From positions 1 through 32,931 of the IMG/VR virus record IMGVR_UViG_3300021364_000094: a stretch of DNA of 32,931 nt; one strand, given 5' to 3'. Below are positions 1,677 to 15,714 of the stretch, in pieces. The notes beneath the pieces were generated by a model. The model did not search any database, was not told the origin of the DNA, and saw only the letters and a program-made list of their open reading frames with translations. Within the stretch, counting starts at the first letter, position 1. Every line of letters begins with the position of its first letter. Source of the stretch: a virus. The translations under genes and the position numbers were made by a program.

Positions 1677-2426
1677 ATGCCTATACCTACAGTTTATACA
1701 CCAATTCAACCAACACCTAGTGTTGTAATGAGACCTATTGTCTGGACACCCAATGTCTGGACAGCGGTTGTTTGTAGTCCTGGACCTCCAATTATTCCAG
1801 AGGTGTTTACAGTTACTGTAACTAATTTTCAACCTGTTATTGCACCTTCTGCATATTTTGGAGATCCTGGATTAAGAATTGATTTGATTAGTACTAATGG
1901 TTCTAGTGGGTCTGCAGGACCTGGAGGGATTGGTATTGCAACAGCAACTTGTACATTCCCTGGAACCATTACAATGAATGTATCTCTCAACTATACAGAC
2001 TATCTGTTCCCTAATAAAGAGTACAAGTATAGAAGGGATGTAGTTCCTCCTATACACCTTCCTACAACTGTTGTATCGCCTTCTGGGTATACTGCACAGT
2101 ATGGAACCCTTAATCAGGGTTCTGCAACCCTTAGGGGGACGTTTAAGAACCCTATTGGTGGTCTTCTTATTGCAGGTACTCCTACAGTAGGAATGATTAA
2201 TGAAATTGGAACAACTGATCATATGCAGCATTATTTTCCAGATCCTAACTTTATGATTATTGTAGAATATACAGTAGTCATCACAAGTAGTTGTGGTGTT
2301 GGTGCTGGTACATTTCCAATCAAACAAATTGTCTATGATGACAAGGACATTGCATCACAGAGGTTTGTTGATGCAGTAAATAGTCAGACAGGACGTAATC
2401 TTAATAATCCTAAATCATTGCCATGA
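1677..2426 (+). CDS. Putative virion structural protein, shorter relative of the previous one
   Basis: The product is 249 residues. The N-terminal 40 residues are unusual, with repeated Pro and two Trp-Thr-Pro/Ala segments (IVWTPNVWTAVV). A beta-rich region follows at about 43-130 (VFTVTVTNF ... VIAPSAYF ... NGSSGS ... GTITM ... YLFPNKEYKY ... P), and it parallels residues 183-270 of the upstream protein. A Gly-rich stretch lies at about 74-86. The C-terminus (FPIKQIVYDDKDIASQRFVDAVN) looks helical. Only 3 nt separate it from the upstream gene and it overlaps the PAAR gene by ATGA, so the three are probably translated together. This fits a spike-associated virion protein, but the function is unknown. 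Confidence 0.75.
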   Translation: MPIPTVYTPIQPTPSVVMRPIVWTPNVWTAVVCSPGPPIIPEVFTVTVTNFQPVIAPSAYFGDPGLRIDLISTNGSSGSAGPGGIGIATATCTFPGTITMNVSLNYTDYLFPNKEYKYRRDVVPPIHLPTTVVSPSGYTAQYGTLNQGSATLRGTFKNPIGGLLIAGTPTVGMINEIGTTDHMQHYFPDPNFMIIVEYTVVITSSCGVGAGTFPIKQIVYDDKDIASQRFVDAVNSQTGRNLNNPKSLP

Positions 2427-2758
2427 CAAAACCAAGACAGTTATTAAATAAACGTTGTACTTATGTTGGTGCTTTATCTGCAGGGCACATTTGTTATCCA
2501 CCAACTGCTCTTACGCAAGGATCACCTAATGTATTTGTAAATTTCATTCCTGGTGGGCGTGTGGGGGATTTATTTGCTCCTCATGCATGTCCTTGCTCAA
2601 ATTGTCCTCCTCCACACCTAGTAAGACCCATTTCATCGGGTCCAGTTAACGTGTATTTCAATTTTCGTCCACCTGGACGTATTGGAGACGCAATTGGTTG
2701 TGGGGATATCGTTGCTCAGGGGTCATTTAACGTCCTTGCAGGCAGTGCTGGGACTTGA
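2423..2758 (+). CDS. PAAR-repeat protein, tip of the tail spike
   Basis: This 111-residue protein looks like a PAAR protein. PAAR proteins form a small cone that binds a metal ion through His/Cys and caps the central spike that pierces the cell envelope (T4 gp5.4, type VI secretion tips). Two related repeats are visible. One is at about 29-57 (GSPNVFVNFIPGGRVGDLF followed by APHAC), the other at about 69-111 (PVNVYFNFRPPGRIGDAIGCGD ending GSFNVLAGSAG). His/Cys ligand candidates include His22, the His-Ala-Cys near 54-56 and the CPCSNCPPPH segment. The length fits the family. The ATG overlaps the previous stop by 4 nt, and the stop codon lies inside the -35 box of the downstream promoter. Confidence 0.87.
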   Translation: MTKPRQLLNKRCTYVGALSAGHICYPPTALTQGSPNVFVNFIPGGRVGDLFAPHACPCSNCPPPHLVRPISSGPVNVYFNFRPPGRIGDAIGCGDIVAQGSFNVLAGSAGT

Positions 2759-2783
2759 CAAAGCGTAAAATCTCTCTTATACT
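2755..2783 (+). promoter_or_regulatory. Sigma70-type promoter
   Basis: A perfect -35 box TTGACA (2755-2760) and a -10 box TATACT (2778-2783, one mismatch to TATAAT) are separated by exactly 17 nt. This matches the bacterial housekeeping-sigma consensus closely. The -35 box overlaps the TGA stop of the PAAR gene (2756-2758). Transcription would begin near 2790 and read into the 49-residue basic protein gene at 2813. Confidence 0.82.
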
Positions 2784-2812
2784 ACTGTAGTTCACACAAA
2801 AACACGTAAATT

Positions 2813-2962
2813 ATGGCAATGCGGTCCAAAGTTGGTCTTTCTGGCGCTAATTTCATGCCTGGAAAACCCAAAACTACTCGTCAAGGGTCATCTAAAAACA
2901 CAAAATACGCTGCAACTTCGCGTAATAACAAGAAAAAGCGTTATCGGGGTCAAGGACGTTGA
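2813..2962 (+). CDS. Small very basic protein, 49 residues
   Basis: The open frame runs MAMRSKVGLSGANFMPGKPK ... to ... KKKRYRGQGR. About fourteen of 49 residues are Lys or Arg and there are no acidic residues, so the protein is likely to bind nucleic acid or an acidic partner; that is inference. The start is the first ATG after the strong sigma70-type promoter; a second in-frame ATG is two codons later. I believe close relatives occur in marine T4-like cyanophages, from memory only. The stop codon overlaps the TTG start of the next gene. The promoter, size and charge suggest an early host-interaction or regulatory protein. Confidence 0.8.
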   Translation: MAMRSKVGLSGANFMPGKPKTTRQGSSKNTKYAATSRNNKKKRYRGQGR

Positions 2963-3117
2963 GACCAGAGACCAGAAAAGCAATGGAAATGCTTTGGAGT
3001 GCCAAATGGAACCTCCCAAAAGCAGCAAAACACTGCAATCTCACTAACAAAGAGATGAAAATTACATTTAATGAGTATTGTGCATTCCATCCACCCACAT
3101 TTAAGGTAGAAAAATGA
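2959..3117 (+). CDS. Small helical protein, possible helix-turn-helix, TTG start
   Basis: A 52-residue frame starts with TTG at 2959, overlapping the previous stop, and ends at TGA, overlapping the ATG of the next gene. The product begins (M)RPETRKAMEMLWSAKWNLP and continues PKAAKHCNLTNKEMKITFNE. The pattern helix / AAKHCNLT / helix resembles a helix-turn-helix unit (turn near the Asn-Leu-Thr), so DNA binding is possible but unproven. An alternative start is the ATG at 2983, which would lose eight residues of a continuous, protein-like N-terminus. The overlaps on both sides support the TTG start and translational coupling. Confidence 0.72.
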   Translation: MRPETRKAMEMLWSAKWNLPKAAKHCNLTNKEMKITFNEYCAFHPPTFKVEK

Positions 3118-3620
3118 CTAAACCTCTCCTGTTCATATCACAAGATAAGGAGATGGCACTCATTCAGGAGATGTCATACAAGATCAAGAGAGCGGGATGG
3201 GACATCCACCCCTCAAAAACTTGTTTTTTGTGTGTATCTCCTGATTATTCTAGTATTGTTACTCAACATCTCTCCCATTCACTCACCATGGATGGGGAGA
3301 TTTTTCATGTTGAGGCAGTCAATGTGCCATTTCCTGATGAATCTGCAGAAAATTACAGAGTTAACTTTGAAATTAACTATGCAGATTGGGTTCTTGACTG
3401 GGAAAACTTCGTATTATGCGAAGCAGGCGTAATCCGAGGAGGTAATTATACCTGGATTACAGAATCTATGAAGAAATTTAGTAAGAAAAATTACTACACC
3501 TTGTCTCTTTGTGAGAATATTGGTAGTAAGTATAAGAGTGACATGGTTTCTCTCTATTATGATGATAGTAAGGAAGATTTACATTTTTGGTGGGAACAAC
3601 CTAATAATCATTGGCGATAA
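3114..3620 (+). CDS. Conserved-looking cytoplasmic protein of unknown function
   Basis: The product is 168 residues, with no signal peptide or membrane segment. Its composition differs from the structural genes around it: it has several Cys and Trp, and mixed alpha/beta character. A conspicuous segment near residues 94-112 reads WENFVLCEAGVIRGGNYTW. It has the hydrophobic strand, acidic residue and Gly-Gly turn seen in phosphoribosyltransferase-like or Rossmann-type folds, but the match is too weak for a call. The C-terminus is rich in aromatic residues (DLHFWWEQPNNHW). The gene overlaps the upstream 52-residue gene by ATGA, so it belongs to the unit driven by the sigma70-type promoter at 2755. 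A role in the infected cell rather than in the virion is inferred from that context. Confidence 0.78.
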   Translation: MTKPLLFISQDKEMALIQEMSYKIKRAGWDIHPSKTCFLCVSPDYSSIVTQHLSHSLTMDGEIFHVEAVNVPFPDESAENYRVNFEINYADWVLDWENFVLCEAGVIRGGNYTWITESMKKFSKKNYYTLSLCENIGSKYKSDMVSLYYDDSKEDLHFWWEQPNNHWR

Positions 3621-3623
3621 ATA
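3616..3623 (+). promoter_or_regulatory. T4-type late promoter motif GATAAATA
   Basis: GATAAATA matches the T4 late -10 element (TATAAATA) except at the first base, and overlaps the stop codon of the 168-residue gene. It would restart late transcription for the 47-residue gene and the gp25-gp6 block after the early-type island. Confidence 0.6.
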
Positions 3624-3635
3624 TATTGGAGATGG

Positions 3636-3676
3636 TAACCTCCCAAAAAGTTCTATAACGTTTATTTAAGAGGTTA
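3636..3676 (+). promoter_or_regulatory. Inverted repeat that can pair with the ribosome binding site
   Basis: TAACCTC at 3636-3642 is the exact reverse complement of GAGGTTA at 3670-3676, with a 27-nt loop. The right arm includes most of the Shine-Dalgarno AAGAGG (3668-3673) of the 47-residue GTG-start gene, so a folded transcript could hide that site. No regulator or ligand is visible. Confidence 0.4.
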
Positions 3677-3678
3677 TT

Positions 3679-3822
3679 GTGGCAAATTCACCAATTCCAG
3701 ATCAAAGTGAAGATTTTCGTAAATCCGGAATGGTTTTGATTACAGATCCAAGGTCTGATTATTATTTGAAAAAAATAGAAAAACAAAAAGAAGATAAGAA
3801 AAGTAAGATATATAAAGTATAA
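3679..3822 (+). CDS. Small charged protein, GTG start
   Basis: This 47-residue frame begins with GTG at 3679, 5 nt after a good Shine-Dalgarno AAGAGG. The product starts (M)ANSPIPDQSEDFRKSGMVL, continues with ITDPRSDYYLKKIE and ends in a Lys-rich tail (KQKEDKKSKIYKV). The tail looks helical and basic. I do not recognise a function. The gene lies between a late-promoter-like motif and gp25, with the gp25 start 12 nt after its stop, so it is probably expressed with the baseplate wedge genes. The ribosome site and protein-like composition argue that it is real; an independent homolog would settle it. Confidence 0.68.
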   Translation: MANSPIPDQSEDFRKSGMVLITDPRSDYYLKKIEKQKEDKKSKIYKV

Positions 3823-3833
3823 AGAGACTGAAA

Positions 3834-4226
3834 ATGCCATCTATATCTAAAAAATTCGTTGATCTTAATCCCAATTTCACCAAACATCCCGTTACTGGTG
3901 ATATTGGGGTATTGAAAAATGAAGATGCAATTAAACAGTCGGTAAAAAATATTGTTATGACCCAGTTAGGTGAAAAGTTTTTCGATCCTCTGTTTGGTAC
4001 ATCAAGTAATAGATTATTATTTGAAAATTTTAATAGTATTATTTCTGATCAATTAGCATTAGAGATTGAAGATGCGCTTAAATTTTATGAACCTAGGGTA
4101 AATTTTGACAATATTGATATCGTTGAAGATGTAAAAAATAATTCTATTAAATTTAATGTAAATTTTACGATTATTGGTTCTCCTTTAGATCAGCAAGCAA
4201 TTAGTCTCATTCTGGAAAAAGTATAA
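3834..4226 (+). CDS. gp25: Baseplate wedge protein gp25
   Basis: The product is 130 residues, close to T4 gp25 (132). gp25 is the small wedge protein with a lysozyme-like name but no proven enzyme role. It joins gp6 at the inner baseplate and primes sheath assembly. The family pattern is clear: an N-terminal strand region, then QLGEKFFDPLFG at about 45-56, LLFENFNS at about 62-69 and the hallmark acidic-Pro-Arg in YEPRVNFDNIDI at about 88-99. The C-terminus is a conserved beta-hairpin ending in a helix. The ATG follows AAAGAGACTGAAA. The stop codon shares one base with the gp6 start (TAATG), matching the tight coupling of these genes in T4-like phages. Confidence 0.95.
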   Translation: MPSISKKFVDLNPNFTKHPVTGDIGVLKNEDAIKQSVKNIVMTQLGEKFFDPLFGTSSNRLLFENFNSIISDQLALEIEDALKFYEPRVNFDNIDIVEDVKNNSIKFNVNFTIIGSPLDQQAISLILEKV

Positions 4227-6082
4227 TGGCATTCAATCAAGTTACTAATTTAGATTTTGAGGACGTAAAGCAAAGTTTACGGGAGTTCATGCGTTCTTCC
4301 GAAACTTTTACTGATTATAATTTTGAAGGATCTGTATTATCTCAATTTATTGATGTATTAGCGTATAATACGTATTACAGTGCATTAAATGCTAACTTAG
4401 TTGCTAATGAGGTATTTTTAGATTCTGCATCAATCAGAGAGAATGTTGTATCTCTTGCAAAAAGTGTTGGATATGTTCCAAGTGGTGCTACGGCATCAAA
4501 AGCAGTAATAAATCTTGATATATCATTACCAGCAGCATCATCAGTTACTCAATTAACTTTAAAGCAAGGAAGTGCGTTAGTTGGGAAGAATGATGAGGGT
4601 TCTTTTGTCTTTACACCTGCTAATGATGTTACGAGACAAGTATCATTAAATTCAGCAGGACGTTCGATTATATCATTTGAAGATTTAGAAATATTTCAAG
4701 CAACGCCACTTTCACTTACTTATACTGTAAACGATTCAACTGTTCAAAGATTTATTATTCCTGATAGTAATTCAGATGTTAACTTAATTCAAGTTAAAGT
4801 GAATGAAATTAATAATTCAATAATTGAAACGTATAAACCGATAACAGATATTACAACATTAAATAGCACTGATAGATCATATTTTGTTCAAGAAAATAAA
4901 AATGAACAATATGAGTTAATTTTTGGTGATGATACTTTTGGTAGAAAATTAAAAAATGGTGATGTGGTTGAGATTACTTATTTTATTACTGATAAAACTT
5001 TAGGTAATGATTGTTCTGAGTTTAGTTTTACTGGTAGACTTATTGATCAAACAGGCAATGGATATTTTGCAACAGAACCAAGTGTTAGAGTAGTATCTCC
5101 ATCTTCTGGAGGATCTGAACCCGAAAGTATAACATCTATCAAATATCTTGCTCCAAGAAGTTATTCTGCACAGCAAAGGGCAGTTACAGTTAATGATTAT
5201 GAGTATTTGGTCAAGACTAAACTTCCTGGTTTAGAATCATTAACGGTATATGGCGGCGAAGATTCTTCTCCACCCCAATACGGAAAGGTATTTGTTGCTG
5301 CAAAACCTTTTGGTGCAGATAAATTAACAACTACTGCTAAATTAAATCTAATTAAAGATTTAAAACAATTTACAATTTTAACTGTTGTTCCTACAATTGT
5401 AGATCCTTCTTTTTTATACATTGATATTGAAAGTTATGTATATTTCAACTCTAAATTAACTAAAAAAACACCTCAACAACTTCAATCTTCAATTAGGGGG
5501 TCTATATTACAATTTGGAAATACACAAGAACTTAATAAATTTAACAGTAAATTTAAATATAGTAAACTAGTATCATATATTGATGAAGTTGATCCTGGTA
5601 TAACTTCAAACATTACAAGAATTAGAATTAATAAAAGGTTAGAAGTTTCTAGTAATATTTTTGCTTCTTATGAAATTTGTTATGGTAATAGAATATCTTC
5701 TAATACAAATTTAACTTCCAATGGATTTAAATTGACTGGTCAACCAGATAATTATGTATTTTTCTTTGAAAAGTATGATGATGCTGGAACAGTAGCAGTA
5801 TATAGAAATGAGGGTAGTGAGAAAAAGTATTTCAGCACTTCAGTTGGAAGTATTGATTATGAAAAAGGTGAAATAAATATCAATAACATCAACATTAATA
5901 GTGTAGTTGGGGATGTTGACTATATTTCTTTATCAGTCATTCCAGCATCAAATGATATTTTAGGTTTGAGAGATTTATATCTATTATTTGATCCTTCTAA
6001 TGTAAATGTAAACGTGATTTTAGATGAATTATCTTCATCATCAAGATCAACGGGTGTCGGACAAATTCCAGTATCTAGTTAA
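4226..6082 (+). CDS. gp6: Baseplate wedge protein gp6
   Basis: The product is 618 residues against about 660 in T4. gp6 forms the inner baseplate ring, dimerising around gp25 and holding gp7 and gp53. It is related to baseplate J proteins of other contractile systems. The N-terminus is typical: LDFEDVKQSLREFMRS, then DYNFEGSVLSQFIDVLAYNT and VANEVFLDSASIRENVVSLA in the first 80 residues. A central J-like region contains GDDTFGRKLKNGDVVEITYF (near 230-250) and AVTVNDYEYLVKTKLPGLES (near 318-337). The C-terminal third is beta-rich and ends in a Ser-rich tail. The gene starts inside the gp25 stop, and the giant gp7-like gene starts 3 nt after its own stop. Confidence 0.95.
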   Translation: MAFNQVTNLDFEDVKQSLREFMRSSETFTDYNFEGSVLSQFIDVLAYNTYYSALNANLVANEVFLDSASIRENVVSLAKSVGYVPSGATASKAVINLDISLPAASSVTQLTLKQGSALVGKNDEGSFVFTPANDVTRQVSLNSAGRSIISFEDLEIFQATPLSLTYTVNDSTVQRFIIPDSNSDVNLIQVKVNEINNSIIETYKPITDITTLNSTDRSYFVQENKNEQYELIFGDDTFGRKLKNGDVVEITYFITDKTLGNDCSEFSFTGRLIDQTGNGYFATEPSVRVVSPSSGGSEPESITSIKYLAPRSYSAQQRAVTVNDYEYLVKTKLPGLESLTVYGGEDSSPPQYGKVFVAAKPFGADKLTTTAKLNLIKDLKQFTILTVVPTIVDPSFLYIDIESYVYFNSKLTKKTPQQLQSSIRGSILQFGNTQELNKFNSKFKYSKLVSYIDEVDPGITSNITRIRINKRLEVSSNIFASYEICYGNRISSNTNLTSNGFKLTGQPDNYVFFFEKYDDAGTVAVYRNEGSEKKYFSTSVGSIDYEKGEININNININSVVGDVDYISLSVIPASNDILGLRDLYLLFDPSNVNVNVILDELSSSSRSTGVGQIPVSS

Positions 6083-6084
6083 AG

Positions 6085-9000
6085 ATGTTTAACGATTTAA
6101 GAGTATCAAATTCAATTTCTGGACAAGTACCTTCGTACTTTGTACAAGAATATCCAAATTTTGTAAATTTTTTAAAAGACTACTATAGGTTTTTAGAAAC
6201 TAATGGTAATTCTTTAGATTTATTGCATGGTATACAAGATTTAATTGATATTGAGACTTATACTGGAGTAGATTATACAGCTGTATTGAGGGAAGATATT
6301 GATGCTGACGATGAAGAAGTTTTAGTTAATGGGCACGTCAAATATCCATTGACAAATGGATTACTTAAAATTAATAATGAGATAATTTTTTATAAAACAT
6401 TTAGTTATGAAGTATTTAATGATATTAAATACACAAAATTTACTGGTTGTGTTAGAGGATATACTTATAATACTCTGACAATTGAAGAGGGATTTAAACC
6501 TAATGTTAAAACTACACCAGAATCGCATACTGCTGGTGCAACAGTAGAGAATCAATCATATACTTATTTACTTTACTTTTTAGAGCAACTTAGAGAACAA
6601 TATCTTTCAGATTTTCCTAAAGGTATTTTAGCAGATAATTTAGAAAAGGGACTTAATATTAATAATCTTTTAAAAAAGATTAAAGATTTTTATCTGACTA
6701 AAGGAACTCCTAGGGGTATTGAATTTTACTTTAAGTTCTTATTCCAACAAAAATCAGAAATTCGTAATTATAGAGACTCTATTTTTACACCTTCAGATGC
6801 AATTTATGAAGATAAGGTAGTTGTCAGATTAGAAAATTTAGATTCTTTTACTGTTCCAAATTTAATATTAAAAGAACTTGTACAATCAGATAATACTTTT
6901 ACAATTTTATCATTTGAAAGTTTATATTCAAATAAAACGTTAGCACTTGAATATGAAATTTCAACTCCAGAAAAATTACTACCTACGAAATTTGCTAAAA
7001 TTATAAGCACTCCCAATTTAGAGAAAAAATATATTTACGTTGATAGTACTGAAGGATTTCCATCAAATGGAATTTTAAAGTATAGAGATTTCTTCATCAA
7101 TTATACATCAAAACAATCTAATTATTTTGTTTGCGATGATACTATTCAAAGAATATCTACATTCTTTAATGGAAATTTAACTCATTCTCTTGGTGAATAT
7201 GTTTATGATTTAAATACACTTTGTGTATTAAAAGATTTTCCAGAATTTTATTTTTCTGTGTATACTGGAATTGCAAATGTTAGTACTACAAAAAATATTG
7301 GATATGTTCCCGGAGATATAGGATTTGTCAGTCAAGTTACATTATCCAATGATCCAATTCTCACTTCTTGGGTATATAATGATATTTTACCTGCAAGGAC
7401 AAATAATGGATTACTATCATCAGTAACAAATTTATATTTTTCCGATACTGCAGCATTTTTGAGTGTATCAAAAGTTCCATTTTCACAACACCCTGGAGAA
7501 GGGTCCCCTCAAAATAATGAGTTGGAAATGGGAGCAAATAGATTATCTTTAATTGATCGTTTTGTAAAAATTCCAAGAATATTTAATTTAAGAGATTTTA
7601 GCAATAGAGAAAATACTATTGCACAATTTCCAGTTGGATTAATGATTGATGGTACTCCATTAATGAACTGGAAAAATAATAATGTAGTAACTCTTGGTAG
7701 AATAGAGAGCATTGATATTCAAAATGGTGGATCTAATTTTAATATAGATTCTCCTCCAATAATTGTGGTCAATGAACCAACTACTGACGAAAATGGGAAA
7801 GAAACAGCAGAATTAGAATTAAAAATTTCTGGTGCAGTTTCAGAGGTAAATATTGAAAATGGTGGATCTGGATATCCAAAAAACGTTTCTATTTTTGTAA
7901 AAAAATCTGATAATAATGATCCAAATGTTGATTTTAGGCAAGCAATTTTATCTGCCGTAGTTGTTGGAGGTAAGATTACACGAGTTAAAATTATTGATCC
8001 TGGATCTGGATATACTGATACCCCATCTATTGAAATAACTCCAGATTTTACACAGGCAAATTCTGCAGGAACACCTGCGGATATTTCAGCATTGGTTGAA
8101 GGTAGTATCTATAGAGTTGATTATAAAACTGATGGTAATAATAATCCAATAAAAGGTAAAAAATATACACAAAATCCATCATATGAACTAAAGAAAGGTT
8201 TCGGTGCAACTGCTGTTCCAATTATTTCTAATGGTAAATTAACAGATATTACTTTAATTAATGAAGGTAAAGAATATAATTCACCTCCAAAAGTTAATGT
8301 AATAGATATTTCTGGATCGGGAATTGGTGCTAAAGTTATTTCTAAAATTATTAATGGTAAAGTAACTGATTTTTCAATAATTAACTCGGGAATTAATTAT
8401 AATGAAAATACTACTAGACTAGAAATAGTCGAATCTGGTGAGGGAGACCTTATCAATTTAAATACTCAAATTTGGACTCCTGTTAATAATTATTTTCAAC
8501 CAATTAATAGCGATGGTTCCTTTATTGAAGAAATTGATTCTGAAAATAATATAGTTACCTATAATATTTTAGGATTTCCAAAAAATTTAAAATATCATGA
8601 TAAATCTACAAATACTTATCAAAGTATAGAATTTGGAACAGAATCTGATAATCATTCTCCAATTATTGGTTGGGCATTTGATGGATCTCCAATTTATGGT
8701 CCATTTGGATTCCGAGAAGCATTAGATTCCGGATCTGAAATTGCTAAAATGACCAGTGGATACCGCAAAAAGACTTCTTTTGATAGTATTAGACAACAAG
8801 TAGGTGGCCTCGGTCTTGCTCAATTTGAAATAGGATATTTTGCAGAAGACTGGGAGTGGATACCTGATCCATTAAACTTAGATCAAGAAAATGGTAGATT
8901 TTGCGTTACACCAGAATTTCCAAACGGTGTTTATGCATATTTTGCTACTATTGAAACTTTAAATCCAGAAACTCAAAATAAAGAAGGATTTCCATATTTT

Positions 9001-12000
9001 GTAGGAAGTAAGTACAAGGGATCTACATTTAATGAATTTAATACTAAAGAAATTCGTAATCTTTTTGAAGAAAATATAACTAAATTTATAAGTAATAACG
9101 ATACAGTATCAATTAAACCAGTAGATCCTGGATTATTTGCAGTTGAGTCTATTCCAGAATCTACGGACTCAAAATTATCTTCAATTGAAGTTTCTAATGG
9201 TGGTGATTTATATAAATTTGGTGATAAAGTAGTATTTGATAATACTGAAACGCAAGGTTTTGGTGCTTCTGCATTTGTTAGTGTTTTGAAAGGAAGAAAT
9301 GTAGTAAATGTTTCAAAAGAATTATACGATTATATTGAATATGAAGATGAAAGTTCTCCTATCACTGAAGGTACGGTACTAAAAACTAATAACGGTTATG
9401 AAGGTACGGTATACAATGTAAATCAAACTAGAAAACAAATTTATATTGATAGGACTGCAGGAACAACAATTGATGAGGGTTTTGAAATTTTTGATGATCA
9501 AAATTTAACAGATACTCTTATTCAAACAAAATTAACTGAAACTATTAATAATAATTTGTTTACAACTTCTTTGACTAATGATGTTGGAAGAACAAGTTTA
9601 CTTATAACTGTAAATAGTGTTTCTAATATTTCTGTAGGTGATTACATAAAAATTGAAGATGAGTATATAAAAGTTATTAGAATTAACGGAACAGAATTAT
9701 TTGTTATTAGAGGAATTAATGGCACAATATCAAAATCATATAGTGCTAATGATAGTGTGAAAATTTTAAATAAACTAAACGTGTTTAGTTCTGTAGAATT
9801 TCTCATTAACGATGTTATTAAAATTGAAAGTGAAGTTTTTAGAATCGTTAACATATTATCTACTAGAGAATCTAGTATCCAAGGAATTAATATTATTAAT
9901 GGTGGAAGTGGTATCAGTGCAGGTACATATTACTTGTATTTTGATGGAATTTTACAAACAAATGGTGGTAATAATGCAACAACAGTTACTGTTTTAAATG
10001 GTTCTGTTACTCAATTAACTTTTGATGAGAACACTTCTATATCTGATAATCCTTTAGTGCAAATTGGAGATAGCGCAACATATGCCTCTGCTAACTTTTT
10101 AACTGGAATTACAATTAAAGCTTCAAAATTTAGACATGTTCTTGATGTAGAGAGAGCTATATTCTCTACTACTGCTCAGCAACATCTTTCTGGTCTTGGC
10201 GTATCCGGACAAAACTTCATTAGTGCTACTGTAACAAAATTTGAGCAAGATAGAATTTTAACTACTATTGGAGCACAGAGCAATTTACTTGTTCCTGATG
10301 ATGAGATTACAGTTACTGCATCTTTACAAACATTAGTTTCTAAAGAAATTACCATATCAAATAGTCAAATTTTAGTTGATGGCACTGCAGTAAATAGTTT
10401 AGATCTTTTTGAAGGATATTCTTACACATTTACTGCTAACGGATTGAAATTTGAGTTCTTTGGAATTTCTACCGATAGTAACAATAATTTTATTCCAGGT
10501 AAAAGATATTTTGATGTTACTGTTGAAGAAGTATTTGATAATAGTGGTGAATTAGAGACATTTACTATTAAACCTAAAGCATCAGATTTAACCCAGTATT
10601 TCTTAGTTATTACAGACCCAGATAACCCAACAATCACTAAAAATATATTAATAAACACTATTAGTGAACCTATAAATGGATTATATAAGATTATTCGATC
10701 AACTTCTAGTGATTTTACATTTTATACAGAAACTGATCCAGGAAATCAATTTATATCAAATTATAATTCACAAACAATTAAATATACTACAACTTCAACC
10801 ACTGCAAAAGGACCAATTGAGTTTGTTACTTTAACTTCTGGAGGATTTTCCTATGTTACTCCACCTGGAGTTTCTACTGTAACTTCAAATGAAGGTATTG
10901 GTGCAATTTTAACTCCAAAAACAAATAGTATTGGTGTTATTAATAATATTACCAATAATTTTTCTGGATATGGATTTAGTTCAGATTTTAGACAAAAACC
11001 TGTAGTAAGATTTCCACAAATTTCTCAAATAGATAATATTTTTACTGTTTCATCTGCAAATCTTATTTCTGGTGGTGAGGATTATCTATTTACTCCAAGA
11101 GTTGTCGTAACTGGTGGTGGATTATCAGATAATGACCCTTCACATGCTGTTATTGAAGCAACAGCTGCAAAAACTGGGATTAGAGAAATTTTAAATTTAG
11201 ATTTAATAAGTAGAGGTCAAAAATATAATTCTGCACCAAATATTATTATTGAAAAATATTATTTTGTAGAATTAAATGGTTCAGGTAGCAGTACAACGTT
11301 AACATTTAAATTTCCATTTAGTCAGTATATTAGACAAGATGATAAATTTAAAATAAGAGGTTATTATTTAAATAATAATGGTGAAGAAATATTTGCTGAA
11401 AGTAATACTTTTCTCGCAAATTTACAAACAACTACAATTACATGTAGAGAGTCTGGTTCTAATGTAGATTTAGATCCAAGAACTACCGGAACTTTAGCAA
11501 CTGTTAATCAAGATATTTTAAGATACGAATTTATTTCTGAAAGTAGAGTTGCCACTGCTAATGCAATTGTAACTAAATCTTCTTTCACTCCTTCAGAAAA
11601 AATTATATTTAATGTAGAAGAAGGTATAGATAAATTTGGATTTGTATCACGTAATTTTGGTTGGCAACCTGCAAATTCAACTTTACGTATTGAGAATTTT
11701 AATTATCAATTCCAAGTTGGAGATACTGTTTTTGGAGAAAGTAGTAAATCTGTTGGAGTTATTTCTAAAGTAGAATCTTCTTCGTCAATTGGTGAACTTG
11801 GAGTAACAGTAAAAAAACCAAAAACTTTCTTAACTAAAAATTCTTTCTTAGGATCAAATTTTGAAAAACTACAAGATAGTTTTAGATATCAGAGATTTGC
11901 CTATGAGATTGGTGTGGACACTCCATTAAGTAAGTGGAAAGAAAATTATAAACAAACAGTTCATCCCACTGGTTATAATTTATTTGCGAGAACTACTATT

Positions 12001-15000
12001 AGAAATGATGTTAGAATTGGAGCAGTTGAGGATGATCCAAACAAAAACGGTATTACAGTTATACCAAATCAAGTTATTTCTACTAGCGTAGCACAAGAAA
12101 TTTCTATTAGAAGAAAATATAATTATCTTCTCACTCAAAATGTAGGGGATGTAGAAGTTAAAGTTTTAAATAAAGAGTTAACTGATGTTAAACAAACAAA
12201 AGACGCGATTGTTGCGGTTTTTGAAGATTTTTCTGATCAATTTGATGGTATAAAAACTTCATTTTTACTTAGGGCAATTGATCCGTTAAATCCTGAAATA
12301 GATAATCAACCTAATTATATTGAAAATTATGACGTAGATCAAATGCTTGTCTTATTAGACAATGTAATACAAACTTATGGATCTTCTTGGTTTGTAACTG
12401 ATTCAGATAAAAATATTAGATTTACTTCAAGTCAATCTCAAGGAGAATTGCTACCTGAAGGTGAAAAGATAATCTATAGAAAATTTAATGATTCAACCGT
12501 AATTCACGAATCTTCAGAAGTTGTAAGTTCTGCAGGATCTGTGTTCCCAATCAGAGATAATAGTGGTAGTGCTTGGCCATCAGGAACGTTTTCTTCAATA
12601 GATAACGACAATTATCTTGTTTTTATTGATGGCATTTGTCAAAATAATTCTGTATTTACTATATCTAATACTAATAATGGTCAGATTGATTTTGGTTCAG
12701 ATATTTTACCTGTTGATACTCAAATATCTGTAAGATATATTTCAGGTCTTTTAAAAAATGAATTTACGTCAGGTTCAGTTACTGCAAATACTGCAGTAAC
12801 TTTATCTAATAAACCTTCATTGTCAACTTCTAAACAAAGTTACTTCGTATTTGTAGACGGAGCATTAATGACAAGTGGAGATGACTCGATCTATGATATT
12901 GATGCTAATAAAGATATTGTATTTAATGTAAGTTTTAATTATGATTCATTGGTTGTAGTTATTGATCCTTTGGGAGTTGCTTTAACTACACAAGAAGATG
13001 ATATAATTGCAGAAAAATATTCTTATAAAATTGAGGATGGTCAACTTGAAATTCCAGTAGGAACTGTTATTAATCCAGAAGAATATATTTTAGAAATTGC
13101 GGGTGTAGTACAAACTCCATATTTGGTATATGAAATTTTGTCTAGTGGTGAAAGAAAAATTAACTTTACAGAACCACCTAGAAGATTTCTTTCTGAAGAA
13201 AATGATCCAAATACAGATGATGATGATATTCTTGTCGGACGCCAATTTATAGGTTTATTATATCAAAGAAGTGATCCAACAGGATCTGGCGGAACTACTA
13301 AAAATTATCAATTTGATGACATTAGTCAAAATATAATTCAGATTAAAGAAAATTTAGATAACTTTATGGTTGGAGATAATATTAGTAGAAGTGATGGTTT
13401 ATCTCTTGCAACTATTGTTGATAAAAAATCTACAAGTACTAAAATTATTGCAGAAAGTCAATTTGTTAATGCATCTTTTGCCCCAAATGATACTGGAACT
13501 ATAACTGTAAATTCTCTTAAAAATATATTTGAGGGAGATAGATTTGAATTTAATGGAGGAATAGGATTAACAAGTATAGATGATGATGAAATTGAAATTA
13601 CGTCAATTAATTATAATACAAATGTTATAACTATTACAAATATTTCTTCAAATACTTTATCAATAACCATTGAAATTGATGATAACTTTAATGTAAAACA
13701 CAATACTATTGAAATTTCAAATCTAGAAACAAGTATTGCTAACAAAGATGATGCCTTTGTAGATGGAAGTGTAATTTTAAGTGGTGCTGCAAATCTTCAA
13801 TCAACTAATGTTAATAGTACTATTGACAATACTGTCGGTCTTAGATTAGATTCTGCAATTGCACGAGTGCAGGCAGGAAACGTCTCCAATGGTGCTTTAA
13901 CTGGTAATGCTGATATTGTTAATGGAGGATCGTTGTACGCCTCACCACTACCAGAGATTAAACTTATTGGTGGTTCTGGTAGTGGAGCAACTATTAATGC
14001 GACTGTTGTTGGAGGAGTGATTACTCAACTTGCATTAAGTGGTGGAACTGGGTATGATGCTGCTGATTTACCTGAATTAATAATTGGAGGACCTCCTGCT
14101 AGTGTCCTTGAAGTTCCTACCGGAGATGGTGCATCATTTAGCATTGGTGATTATATTTTTATTAATGAAACTGAGGTTGTAAAAATTACTGGGATATCTA
14201 CAGATGACCTTACTGTAAGTAGAGGTGAATTGGGGACTAATGTTCAAGATTTTTATATTAAAACCACAAACATTAGAAAAGTTATTCCATATCAAGTTAC
14301 TGCTAAATCTTTTAGAAGAGGATTTGATGGAGATAAAACTTCATTTAAACTTACTGAAGAATTCCGTGCGACAAATATTCCAGTTGACTCTGATATATTT
14401 GTAATTTTAAATGGTGTCTTACAAAAAATTGGTGCTAATGACTCATATACACTATCTGAATCTGGTGGTGAAATTTTTATCAACTTTACTGAGGCACCAA
14501 AATTTAGTAGTCCTTGTAATATATTCTATCTTGGTCAAACCATATCTGTTCAAAATATTTCAGATAAATTTAATGGTGTAAGGAAAGTATTTGAACTTCG
14601 TGACAGTTTAGGTGAAATTTTTAGTTTTGTTGCCAAAGATCAAGCAAACGCAAACATTTCTGCAAATTTAATTATTTTTATTGATGGTGTATATCAAATA
14701 CCATCAGTAATATCTGATGATAGAGAACCTGCATACTCAGATTCTTTATCATCTTACAGATTGTTTGGTAGTTTAATTGAATTCTCTGCACCTCCTTCAC
14801 CTGGGGCTACATTTGAAGCATTTATCTATGTCGGTTCAAATACTGATTATGAAACTATTGATATTGAACCTGCAGTAGAATCTGGAGACTTTATTGATCA
14901 AAGTAATGAAAGAAGTGAGAGAGAAGTTATTAATATTATCAGTTCAAATACATTAGCAGTTACTGATAGTTTAGGTCAAATTGAAAATATATCTGGAAAT

Positions 15001-15714
15001 ATCCCTCAATTTACAGATTTAATACAATCTGAACCTGTAAGAGAATCTCTAAGATCAAGAAGACTATTATCTTCTCAAGTTGCAACAGGATTATCATTCC
15101 CAACAGTAGGTAGGGTGTTACTTACTAGTACAGTAGCATCAATTGAGATTGAACCTATTGATAATTTTATTCCAACAACTCCAGATCCTGGAACTGATAC
15201 ATTTACTTTTGAACTTGCAGCATCTACGAATTTCCCAGTTAGATTCTTAAATTCAAAATATACAAATGCTACATATGGAGCAACTCCAAGTGATAATGAT
15301 ACCCTTTCAAATGTTACTGTTGGATATGATTTACCTTTCAACAATATCATTCATTTACAGACCGGCGCACCTACAATATTTGATGAATCATCATTGGGTT
15401 CTGAGATTGTTGAAAATGGTAAAGTTATTTCTAGACCAATAACTAAACAAATTTTAAGAGTCACTTATGGACCAACTACATTTGAAGAATTTGGAGCAGA
15501 TGTAGTTAGATGGGAACCTGATAATGATAATATTGGTGGTAAATTATATTTAAAATTAGATGATACCTCAAATCCACCTCTAATTACTCATCAAATTAAA
15601 ATTACATACCCAACTGATCCAATTACAAGTAACAATTTTAATATTGACGATGATGATTTGATTTCTGAATATCAAACATTATCAGTTGGAGATAAATTTT
15701 ATTATACAACATAA
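6085..15714 (+). CDS. gp7: Giant gp7-like baseplate wedge protein, 3209 residues
   Basis: The position between gp6 and gp8 is that of T4 gene 7, but T4 gp7 is about 1030 residues. From memory, two parts match the C-terminal half of T4 gp7. Residues 1-250 contain YFVQEYPNFVNFLKDYYRFL and DFYLTKGTPRGIEFYFKFLF. Residues about 1945-1975 contain SKWKENYKQTVHPTGYNLFA. Between them lie about 1,700 extra residues. These include repeated GGxGY-type units (near 543, 593, 635, 726, 766, 1035, 1269, 1582, 1661, 1706), a YHYH-like domain at about 855-960 and a 'GDYIKIEDEYIKV ... RGINGT' unit near 1175-1230. After 2045 come repeated 'FIDGVxQ ... INF' beta-domains to about 2920, with further GGxGY units near 2611 and 2651. 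A wedge role is inferred from order and these matches; the added domains probably face outward. Confidence 0.82.
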   Translation: MFNDLRVSNSISGQVPSYFVQEYPNFVNFLKDYYRFLETNGNSLDLLHGIQDLIDIETYTGVDYTAVLREDIDADDEEVLVNGHVKYPLTNGLLKINNEIIFYKTFSYEVFNDIKYTKFTGCVRGYTYNTLTIEEGFKPNVKTTPESHTAGATVENQSYTYLLYFLEQLREQYLSDFPKGILADNLEKGLNINNLLKKIKDFYLTKGTPRGIEFYFKFLFQQKSEIRNYRDSIFTPSDAIYEDKVVVRLENLDSFTVPNLILKELVQSDNTFTILSFESLYSNKTLALEYEISTPEKLLPTKFAKIISTPNLEKKYIYVDSTEGFPSNGILKYRDFFINYTSKQSNYFVCDDTIQRISTFFNGNLTHSLGEYVYDLNTLCVLKDFPEFYFSVYTGIANVSTTKNIGYVPGDIGFVSQVTLSNDPILTSWVYNDILPARTNNGLLSSVTNLYFSDTAAFLSVSKVPFSQHPGEGSPQNNELEMGANRLSLIDRFVKIPRIFNLRDFSNRENTIAQFPVGLMIDGTPLMNWKNNNVVTLGRIESIDIQNGGSNFNIDSPPIIVVNEPTTDENGKETAELELKISGAVSEVNIENGGSGYPKNVSIFVKKSDNNDPNVDFRQAILSAVVVGGKITRVKIIDPGSGYTDTPSIEITPDFTQANSAGTPADISALVEGSIYRVDYKTDGNNNPIKGKKYTQNPSYELKKGFGATAVPIISNGKLTDITLINEGKEYNSPPKVNVIDISGSGIGAKVISKIINGKVTDFSIINSGINYNENTTRLEIVESGEGDLINLNTQIWTPVNNYFQPINSDGSFIEEIDSENNIVTYNILGFPKNLKYHDKSTNTYQSIEFGTESDNHSPIIGWAFDGSPIYGPFGFREALDSGSEIAKMTSGYRKKTSFDSIRQQVGGLGLAQFEIGYFAEDWEWIPDPLNLDQENGRFCVTPEFPNGVYAYFATIETLNPETQNKEGFPYFVGSKYKGSTFNEFNTKEIRNLFEENITKFISNNDTVSIKPVDPGLFAVESIPESTDSKLSSIEVSNGGDLYKFGDKVVFDNTETQGFGASAFVSVLKGRNVVNVSKELYDYIEYEDESSPITEGTVLKTNNGYEGTVYNVNQTRKQIYIDRTAGTTIDEGFEIFDDQNLTDTLIQTKLTETINNNLFTTSLTNDVGRTSLLITVNSVSNISVGDYIKIEDEYIKVIRINGTELFVIRGINGTISKSYSANDSVKILNKLNVFSSVEFLINDVIKIESEVFRIVNILSTRESSIQGINIINGGSGISAGTYYLYFDGILQTNGGNNATTVTVLNGSVTQLTFDENTSISDNPLVQIGDSATYASANFLTGITIKASKFRHVLDVERAIFSTTAQQHLSGLGVSGQNFISATVTKFEQDRILTTIGAQSNLLVPDDEITVTASLQTLVSKEITISNSQILVDGTAVNSLDLFEGYSYTFTANGLKFEFFGISTDSNNNFIPGKRYFDVTVEEVFDNSGELETFTIKPKASDLTQYFLVITDPDNPTITKNILINTISEPINGLYKIIRSTSSDFTFYTETDPGNQFISNYNSQTIKYTTTSTTAKGPIEFVTLTSGGFSYVTPPGVSTVTSNEGIGAILTPKTNSIGVINNITNNFSGYGFSSDFRQKPVVRFPQISQIDNIFTVSSANLISGGEDYLFTPRVVVTGGGLSDNDPSHAVIEATAAKTGIREILNLDLISRGQKYNSAPNIIIEKYYFVELNGSGSSTTLTFKFPFSQYIRQDDKFKIRGYYLNNNGEEIFAESNTFLANLQTTTITCRESGSNVDLDPRTTGTLATVNQDILRYEFISESRVATANAIVTKSSFTPSEKIIFNVEEGIDKFGFVSRNFGWQPANSTLRIENFNYQFQVGDTVFGESSKSVGVISKVESSSSIGELGVTVKKPKTFLTKNSFLGSNFEKLQDSFRYQRFAYEIGVDTPLSKWKENYKQTVHPTGYNLFARTTIRNDVRIGAVEDDPNKNGITVIPNQVISTSVAQEISIRRKYNYLLTQNVGDVEVKVLNKELTDVKQTKDAIVAVFEDFSDQFDGIKTSFLLRAIDPLNPEIDNQPNYIENYDVDQMLVLLDNVIQTYGSSWFVTDSDKNIRFTSSQSQGELLPEGEKIIYRKFNDSTVIHESSEVVSSAGSVFPIRDNSGSAWPSGTFSSIDNDNYLVFIDGICQNNSVFTISNTNNGQIDFGSDILPVDTQISVRYISGLLKNEFTSGSVTANTAVTLSNKPSLSTSKQSYFVFVDGALMTSGDDSIYDIDANKDIVFNVSFNYDSLVVVIDPLGVALTTQEDDIIAEKYSYKIEDGQLEIPVGTVINPEEYILEIAGVVQTPYLVYEILSSGERKINFTEPPRRFLSEENDPNTDDDDILVGRQFIGLLYQRSDPTGSGGTTKNYQFDDISQNIIQIKENLDNFMVGDNISRSDGLSLATIVDKKSTSTKIIAESQFVNASFAPNDTGTITVNSLKNIFEGDRFEFNGGIGLTSIDDDEIEITSINYNTNVITITNISSNTLSITIEIDDNFNVKHNTIEISNLETSIANKDDAFVDGSVILSGAANLQSTNVNSTIDNTVGLRLDSAIARVQAGNVSNGALTGNADIVNGGSLYASPLPEIKLIGGSGSGATINATVVGGVITQLALSGGTGYDAADLPELIIGGPPASVLEVPTGDGASFSIGDYIFINETEVVKITGISTDDLTVSRGELGTNVQDFYIKTTNIRKVIPYQVTAKSFRRGFDGDKTSFKLTEEFRATNIPVDSDIFVILNGVLQKIGANDSYTLSESGGEIFINFTEAPKFSSPCNIFYLGQTISVQNISDKFNGVRKVFELRDSLGEIFSFVAKDQANANISANLIIFIDGVYQIPSVISDDREPAYSDSLSSYRLFGSLIEFSAPPSPGATFEAFIYVGSNTDYETIDIEPAVESGDFIDQSNERSEREVINIISSNTLAVTDSLGQIENISGNIPQFTDLIQSEPVRESLRSRRLLSSQVATGLSFPTVGRVLLTSTVASIEIEPIDNFIPTTPDPGTDTFTFELAASTNFPVRFLNSKYTNATYGATPSDNDTLSNVTVGYDLPFNNIIHLQTGAPTIFDESSLGSEIVENGKVISRPITKQILRVTYGPTTFEEFGADVVRWEPDNDNIGGKLYLKLDDTSNPPLITHQIKITYPTDPITSNNFNIDDDDLISEYQTLSVGDKFYYTT

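Follow-up and report, generated by a model that had tools for sequence, protein, structure and literature searches.

Moron genes of tailed phages are independent transcription units among late genes. The preQ1 and SAM/SAH riboswitches and the leader of T4 gene 32 are pseudoknot leader RNAs. In T4, the early genes repEA and repEB of oriE are located inside late gene 5 and run antisense to the late genes (PMC3016281). According to a review (PMC2984593), the cyanophages S-PM2 and Syn9 have sigma70-like motifs before early genes and NATAAATA before late genes. Here we have analyzed a stretch of DNA that is a whole 32.9-kb virus record (hereafter the window), and it appears probable that T4-like cyanophages (Kyanoviridae and relatives) carry a moron-like slot for accessory genes between PAAR and gp25-gp6, equipped with a host-type promoter.

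Gene order in the window

By its genes, the window corresponds to the baseplate region of T4-like cyanophages; among annotated matches, Synechococcus myoviruses of the Kyanoviridae come closest. The structural genes follow the order PAAR, gp25, gp6 and then a very large structural ORF (6085-15714, 3209 aa). The features of the region from PAAR to gp6 are as follows.

2423..2758, + strand: gene for a PAAR-repeat spike protein, 111 aa (PF05488, 35.4 bits with a cut-off of 27; PHROG 281, E 7e-24)
2755..2783, + strand: sigma70-type promoter TTGACA-N17-TATACT, predicted from sequence and positional conservation, also in cultured S-RSM4, S-PM2, S-H9-1 and S-SCSM1
2813..2962, + strand: O49, 49 aa, very basic, the first gene of the slot and always kept (ATG start; PHROG 516, E 3e-24; pI 12.0)
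2959..3117, + strand: O52, 52 aa, predicted three-helix HTH (PHROG 1308; TTG start inside the O49 stop)
3114..3620, + strand: O168, the cargo gene, 168 aa, predicted PRTase fold with a degenerate PRPP loop (PHROG 29004; ATG overlapping the O52 stop; AlphaFold pLDDT 85)
3616..3623, + strand: T4-type late promoter -10 motif GATAAATA (sequence; in relatives, this junction shows enrichment of ATAAATA)
3624..3657, + strand: core of an RNA leader, hairpin GGAG-AUGGUAAC-CUCC and then AAAAAGUUCU (CM match of 43.3 bits; covariation)
3650..3684, + strand: downstream part of the leader with a Shine-Dalgarno-like GAGG (the predicted MFE structure pairs AUGGUAACCUC with GAGGUUAUUGU; helix enriched in relatives)
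3679..3822, + strand: O47, a small protein of 47 aa preceded by the RNA leader (PHROG 1414, E 2e-19)
3834..6082, + strand: the baseplate wedge genes gp25 and gp6, where the late structural block resumes (PHROG 261, PHROG 219, PF04965)

An earlier note, made from the letters alone, had described three overlapping genes of non-structural appearance, facing a sigma70 promoter of their own that overlaps the PAAR stop codon and followed by a late-type motif at 3616 that restarts the structural block. These observations are confirmed. The three genes (49, 52 and 168 aa) overlap by a few bases, and none of them is virion-like by any family search; the very basic product is O49, the HTH-like product is by prediction O52, and the soluble product, O168, is predicted to have a PRTase fold, one of those that the note had proposed to search. 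The -35 TTGACA (2755-2760) overlaps the PAAR stop codon (2756-2758). The interpretation given in the note, an early-type gene island with candidate regulators of host takeover or of the late switch, is partly supported.

A sigma70-type promoter precedes O49

With its -10 TATACT at 2778-2783 and a spacer of 17, the window promoter scores 11/12, a value reached by just two sites in 16 kb. Promoter-like sites are frequent in the AT-rich DNA of the window, and the number of consensus matches of at least 9/12 in these 16 kb (89) is not beyond the shuffled expectation (90.7), so that comparison with relatives is needed. Such a count would be expected if the promoter-like sequence were a match by chance or by coding constraint and the genes were late genes of the ordinary kind, transcribed by read-through from upstream, and in one clade TTGACA-N17-TACAAT indeed appears to be within coding sequence. 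We compared the 100 nt upstream of each start of an O49 relative, which gave 133 non-redundant regions of at most 75% identity. Between -50 and -15, 62% of these regions (19% of shuffles) contain a TATAAT-like box. Sigma70 matches score 10/12 or better in 40% (2% of shuffles) and 11/12 or better in 26% (about 0%), and the -10 is of the extended type in 32% (2%). The -10 box peaks sharply at -29/-30 from the ATG, and the extended -10 (TGn) accompanies it in 46 of the 84 upstream regions having the box. At the control junctions before gp25, gp6, PAAR and O47, sigma70 matches of at least 10/12 occur in 0-5% only, without enrichment. The sharp position conserved across divergent flanks, the frequent TGn and the missing box at control junctions all argue against a chance match, which we regard as very unlikely. 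It is the position of the promoter and its conservation in relatives that make it significant, and these results suggest that the three genes have a host-type promoter of their own.

Members of the clade to which the window belongs retain TTGACA and the -10 box in changing flanks. Besides the four cultured phages listed above, weaker forms of the promoter are found in S-SZBM1 and S-WAM1, and in the comparison of cultured phages it is missing in Syn9, ACG-2014d, S-RIM4, S-H35, S-ShM2 and P-TIM40. S-SKS1 and Sf-CH8 have large cargo but no promoter directly before O49, where other small genes precede it. An AGTCAATTGAT-like sequence is located directly 3′ of the -10 box, approximately at the expected RNA 5′ end, in S-RSM4, L036, L037, L237 and others, and GTCAA occurs in 21 of the 84 O49 upstream regions having the box. 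The extended -10 together with AGTCAA was also considered as a genome-wide early motif of S-RSM4 and rejected as a general signature, with only two copies found.

The late-type motif shows the opposite pattern. ATAAATA is enriched before gp25 (65% vs. 5%) and before O47 (30% vs. 3%), whereas it was not found before O49 in the upstream regions of relatives. In the window, the late motif overlaps the stop codon of O168.

Cargo between O49 and O47 is exchanged among relatives

A survey of synteny in related phages revealed a constant order, PAAR, O49, variable genes, O47, gp25 and gp6, in which the cargo is swapped and in some phages absent. In the closest relatives (L007, L008 and L012), a 217-aa protein replaces O168, and O49, O52 and O47 are kept; S-H9-1 and S-PM2 also have cargo different from that of the window. 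Across other phages the slot holds members of a 217-240-aa family, 2OG-Fe(II) oxygenases, a 2Fe-2S ferredoxin, other proteins, or nothing, and it is empty and without promoter in Syn9, ACG-2014d, S-RIM4 and S-H35. The count of O168 among the loci is inflated because O168 was itself one of the queries. The 217-240-aa family is present in 124 of the loci examined, and its representative has no Pfam match; the gene annotated ‘PurM’ at 1682-2398 of the S-SKS1 locus (L445) belongs to this family, and the annotation looks wrong. The GC content is 0.44 in O49, 0.38 in O52 and 0.375 in O168, compared with 0.44 in PAAR upstream and 0.28-0.30 in O47, gp25 and gp6. No terminator-like site, and hence no intrinsic terminator after the cargo, was found on the + strand at 3600-3679 of the window.

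The presence of the promoter is associated with the presence of cargo. Among lineages with PAAR directly upstream of O49, to which the comparison was limited, O49 and gp25 are more than 450 nt apart in 26 of the 40 lineages with the promoter and in 1 of the 20 without it (P = 6e-6, Fisher’s test), a relation that is an association and not a proof, since the 75%-identity filter removes shared ancestry only in part. The one promoter-less lineage with a large gap, L127, keeps TTGACA and has a weaker -10, TATGCT.

O49 and O52 are near-core genes and not accessory ones. They are near-universal in cyanomyoviruses and are found in 445 and 438 phage records, respectively. The three-helix HTH of O52 is predicted with an AlphaFold pLDDT of 86, and a fold search with this model gave weak HTH/homeodomain-like matches only, none with E < 0.39. 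A CP12 match of O52 (E 0.11) was under the cut-off and was rejected. One could propose that O49, O52 and O168 form a dedicated regulatory unit for host takeover or the late switch, in which the promoter serves the conserved small proteins and not the cargo; this would agree with the very basic and near-universal O49, with the predicted HTH of O52, and with the location of the promoter directly before O49. However, lineages free of cargo, such as Syn9 and ACG-2014d, retain O49 (and O52) yet lose the promoter, and in the ACG-2014d genome O52 is located elsewhere. As the promoter tracks interchangeable cargo, an accessory slot is a better explanation than a regulator dedicated to the late switch. 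The late-switch role put forward in the earlier note is unsupported, and we consider a regulatory unit of this kind unlikely.

The promoter might instead make a replication primer, as at T4 oriE. The oriE region resembles the slot in that an early-mode promoter and small early genes are found among late baseplate genes, close to PAAR (5.4) and gene 6. The T4 early genes repEA and repEB, however, run antisense to the late genes and are linked to an origin of replication, whereas the genes of the slot are co-directional with the late genes. Moreover, no iteron array was found in the window, there is no skew break at the site, and O49, O52, O168 and O47 have no similarity to RepEA, 5.1, 5.3 or 5.4, the four T4 proteins compared. 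The analogy with oriE was rejected on these grounds, and a primer function seems hardly credible.

O168 is predicted to have a phosphoribosyltransferase fold

O168 is present in five phage records, which represent three distinct phages, and in at least 236 IMG/VR stretches; in S-SSM7 it is relocated next to psbA. Structure prediction followed by fold searches, the check proposed in the earlier note, points to a 6-oxopurine PRTase fold for the 168-residue product (Foldseek E 2e-6). The O168 model aligns with 6-oxopurine PRTases over nearly its full length (VIA Z 14.7, rmsd 2.4, 144 aligned) and with PyrR at Z 13.0. Thus the predicted fold is shared over almost all of O168 with HGXPRT (5bqp), 7kl6, XGPRT and PyrR (Z 12-14.7), but the identity is 13-16% to the closest 6-oxopurine enzymes and 7-11% to PyrR, and the PRPP loop of O168 is degenerate. 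Matches of O168 to PycC and Lar0958 (13.8 and 14.5 bits) were rejected as noise.

The shared fold (Z 14.7) and a conserved C-terminal WWE(R/Q)PNNHW could suggest that O168 is an active purine-salvage phosphoribosyltransferase that feeds nucleotides to phage DNA synthesis. However, the PRPP-binding motif with its acidic pair is missing in O168, where EAGVIRGGN aligns to VVDEIVDSGNS of 7kl6, and the acidic pair and the catalytic aspartate of the loop are replaced, invariantly or nearly so, in 36 members, which makes an active enzyme improbable. With its PRPP loop degenerate, O168 more probably binds or senses nucleotides than acts as an ordinary catalyst, and its function may be the binding of purine nucleotides rather than ordinary phosphoribosyl transfer.

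A structured RNA leader precedes O47

The RNA leader is located directly after the late motif, and its structured span is 3624-3684, with a stem of 3628-3631 and 3640-3643. Among 139 distinct instances, the second pair of the stem is GC in 99, AU in 31, CG in 6 and UA in 3, with zero mismatches, and the fourth pair likewise occurs as four pair types. In 50 aligned sequences, the covariation is 0.250, compared with 0.082 for shuffles and no more than 0.092 when slid; the pattern by which these sequences were chosen fixes the loop and the tail but leaves the outer stem free. Taken by itself, the leader has a minimum free energy that is not unusual (z of about -0.1 in the window), and the RNA claim therefore rests on covariation only. 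The pairs between loop and tail, AGNAAC/GUUCU, are almost invariant, so that an H-type pseudoknot is a possible but not a proven fold. Alternatively, the tail can pair just before the start codon, where helices of 6 bp or longer form in 56% of cases vs. 9% of shuffles, and a Shine-Dalgarno-like sequence is located in or next to the 3′ arm of this downstream helix in 39 of 59. By prediction, the downstream hairpin can cover the ribosome-binding site of O47. A U-run follows the GAGG-type arm in 14 of the 139 relatives of the downstream leader.

The leader is found in 66 of 132 intervals of relatives, 21 of these 66 with ATAAATA within 35 nt. S-RSM4, Syn9, ACG-2014d and S-SCSM1 have one strong match each, that of S-RSM4 without a late motif directly upstream, and a search of T4 and S-SSM7 gave no match. 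In S-SCSM1 the leader is at 127 kb, followed by an unannotated O47 ORF, and gp25 is far away at 5.8 kb; having moved together with O47, away from gp25, the leader belongs to O47. This O47 homolog (MANSPVDKSNAFIESGMTLITDP...; L443, 124000-130000, approximately 3.0-3.2 kb in the locus) is flanked by a protease-like gene and by plastocyanin/PTOX genes. The RNA pattern has 10 matches in cellular genomes, approximately the number estimated by chance. Five of the 10 have O47-like ORFs 3′ of the match, and these are probably misbinned phage contigs (archaeal and bacterial MAG contigs L308, L309, L311, L312 and L313).

None of the 4227 models of Rfam 15 matches the leader at the gathering score, the best hit being on the opposite strand with E 8.6, and the O47 leader is thus a compact structured element that is undescribed and not in Rfam 15. 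Like the preQ1 and SAM/SAH riboswitches and the leader of T4 gene 32, it combines a short hairpin, an A-rich linker, a tail that could pair with the loop and an adjacent ribosome-binding site, but it lacks an Rfam match and its putative pseudoknot pairs are mostly invariant. We tentatively suggest, with more doubt than confidence, that a new class of regulatory RNA is located on the late side of the slot. Its 28-nt hairpin, which may be an H-type pseudoknot, stays with O47 and would share its 3′ strand with the hairpin over the O47 ribosome-binding site. Such an RNA would act as a two-state translational switch, keeping O47 silent on early read-through RNA and being opened later by binding of a protein, a ligand or an ion.

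Expression of the slot and comparison with known systems

In the accessory slot that we favor, the sigma70-type promoter would be read by host polymerase without phage factors and would start a short transcript at about 2790. This early transcript would carry the constant O49, in most cases O52, and a single exchangeable cargo gene, which is O168 in the window; the gp55-type late promoter at 3616 would restart the baseplate genes after replication and serve O47, gp25 and gp6. Cargo could then be expressed from the onset of infection despite its position in late DNA. The early timing and the use of host polymerase are suggested by the motif rule of S-PM2 and Syn9 (PMC2984593), according to which O49 and the cargo would be transcribed early by host polymerase, with the gp55-dependent late promoter acting later. 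No per-gene time-course data for the slot locus were found in the searched passages of the P-HM2 and S-PM2d papers. If true, this model would explain how lytic T4-like cyanophages retain exchangeable redox, oxygenase and nucleotide-fold genes in the late tail block and could express them from the start of infection. It also predicts where new host-takeover genes should be sought in many marine phage genomes, i.e., between O49 and O47.

The slot shares with morons the placement of non-virion genes between late genes, a sigma70-type promoter, and presence/absence and exchange among relatives. Its cargo is inserted between genes that adjoin in relatives, and consensus and conservation point to a sigma70 promoter of its own; as a terminator was not seen in the window, where the RNA leader marks the late side, we call the slot moron-like only. 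It also differs from morons in belonging to a lytic T4-like phage, not a prophage, and in having the near-core O49 as its constant first gene, retained even without cargo. The principle, an independent early unit among late genes, is an ordinary one, but the setting in which it is found here is new and widespread and is bordered by a structured RNA that is undescribed.
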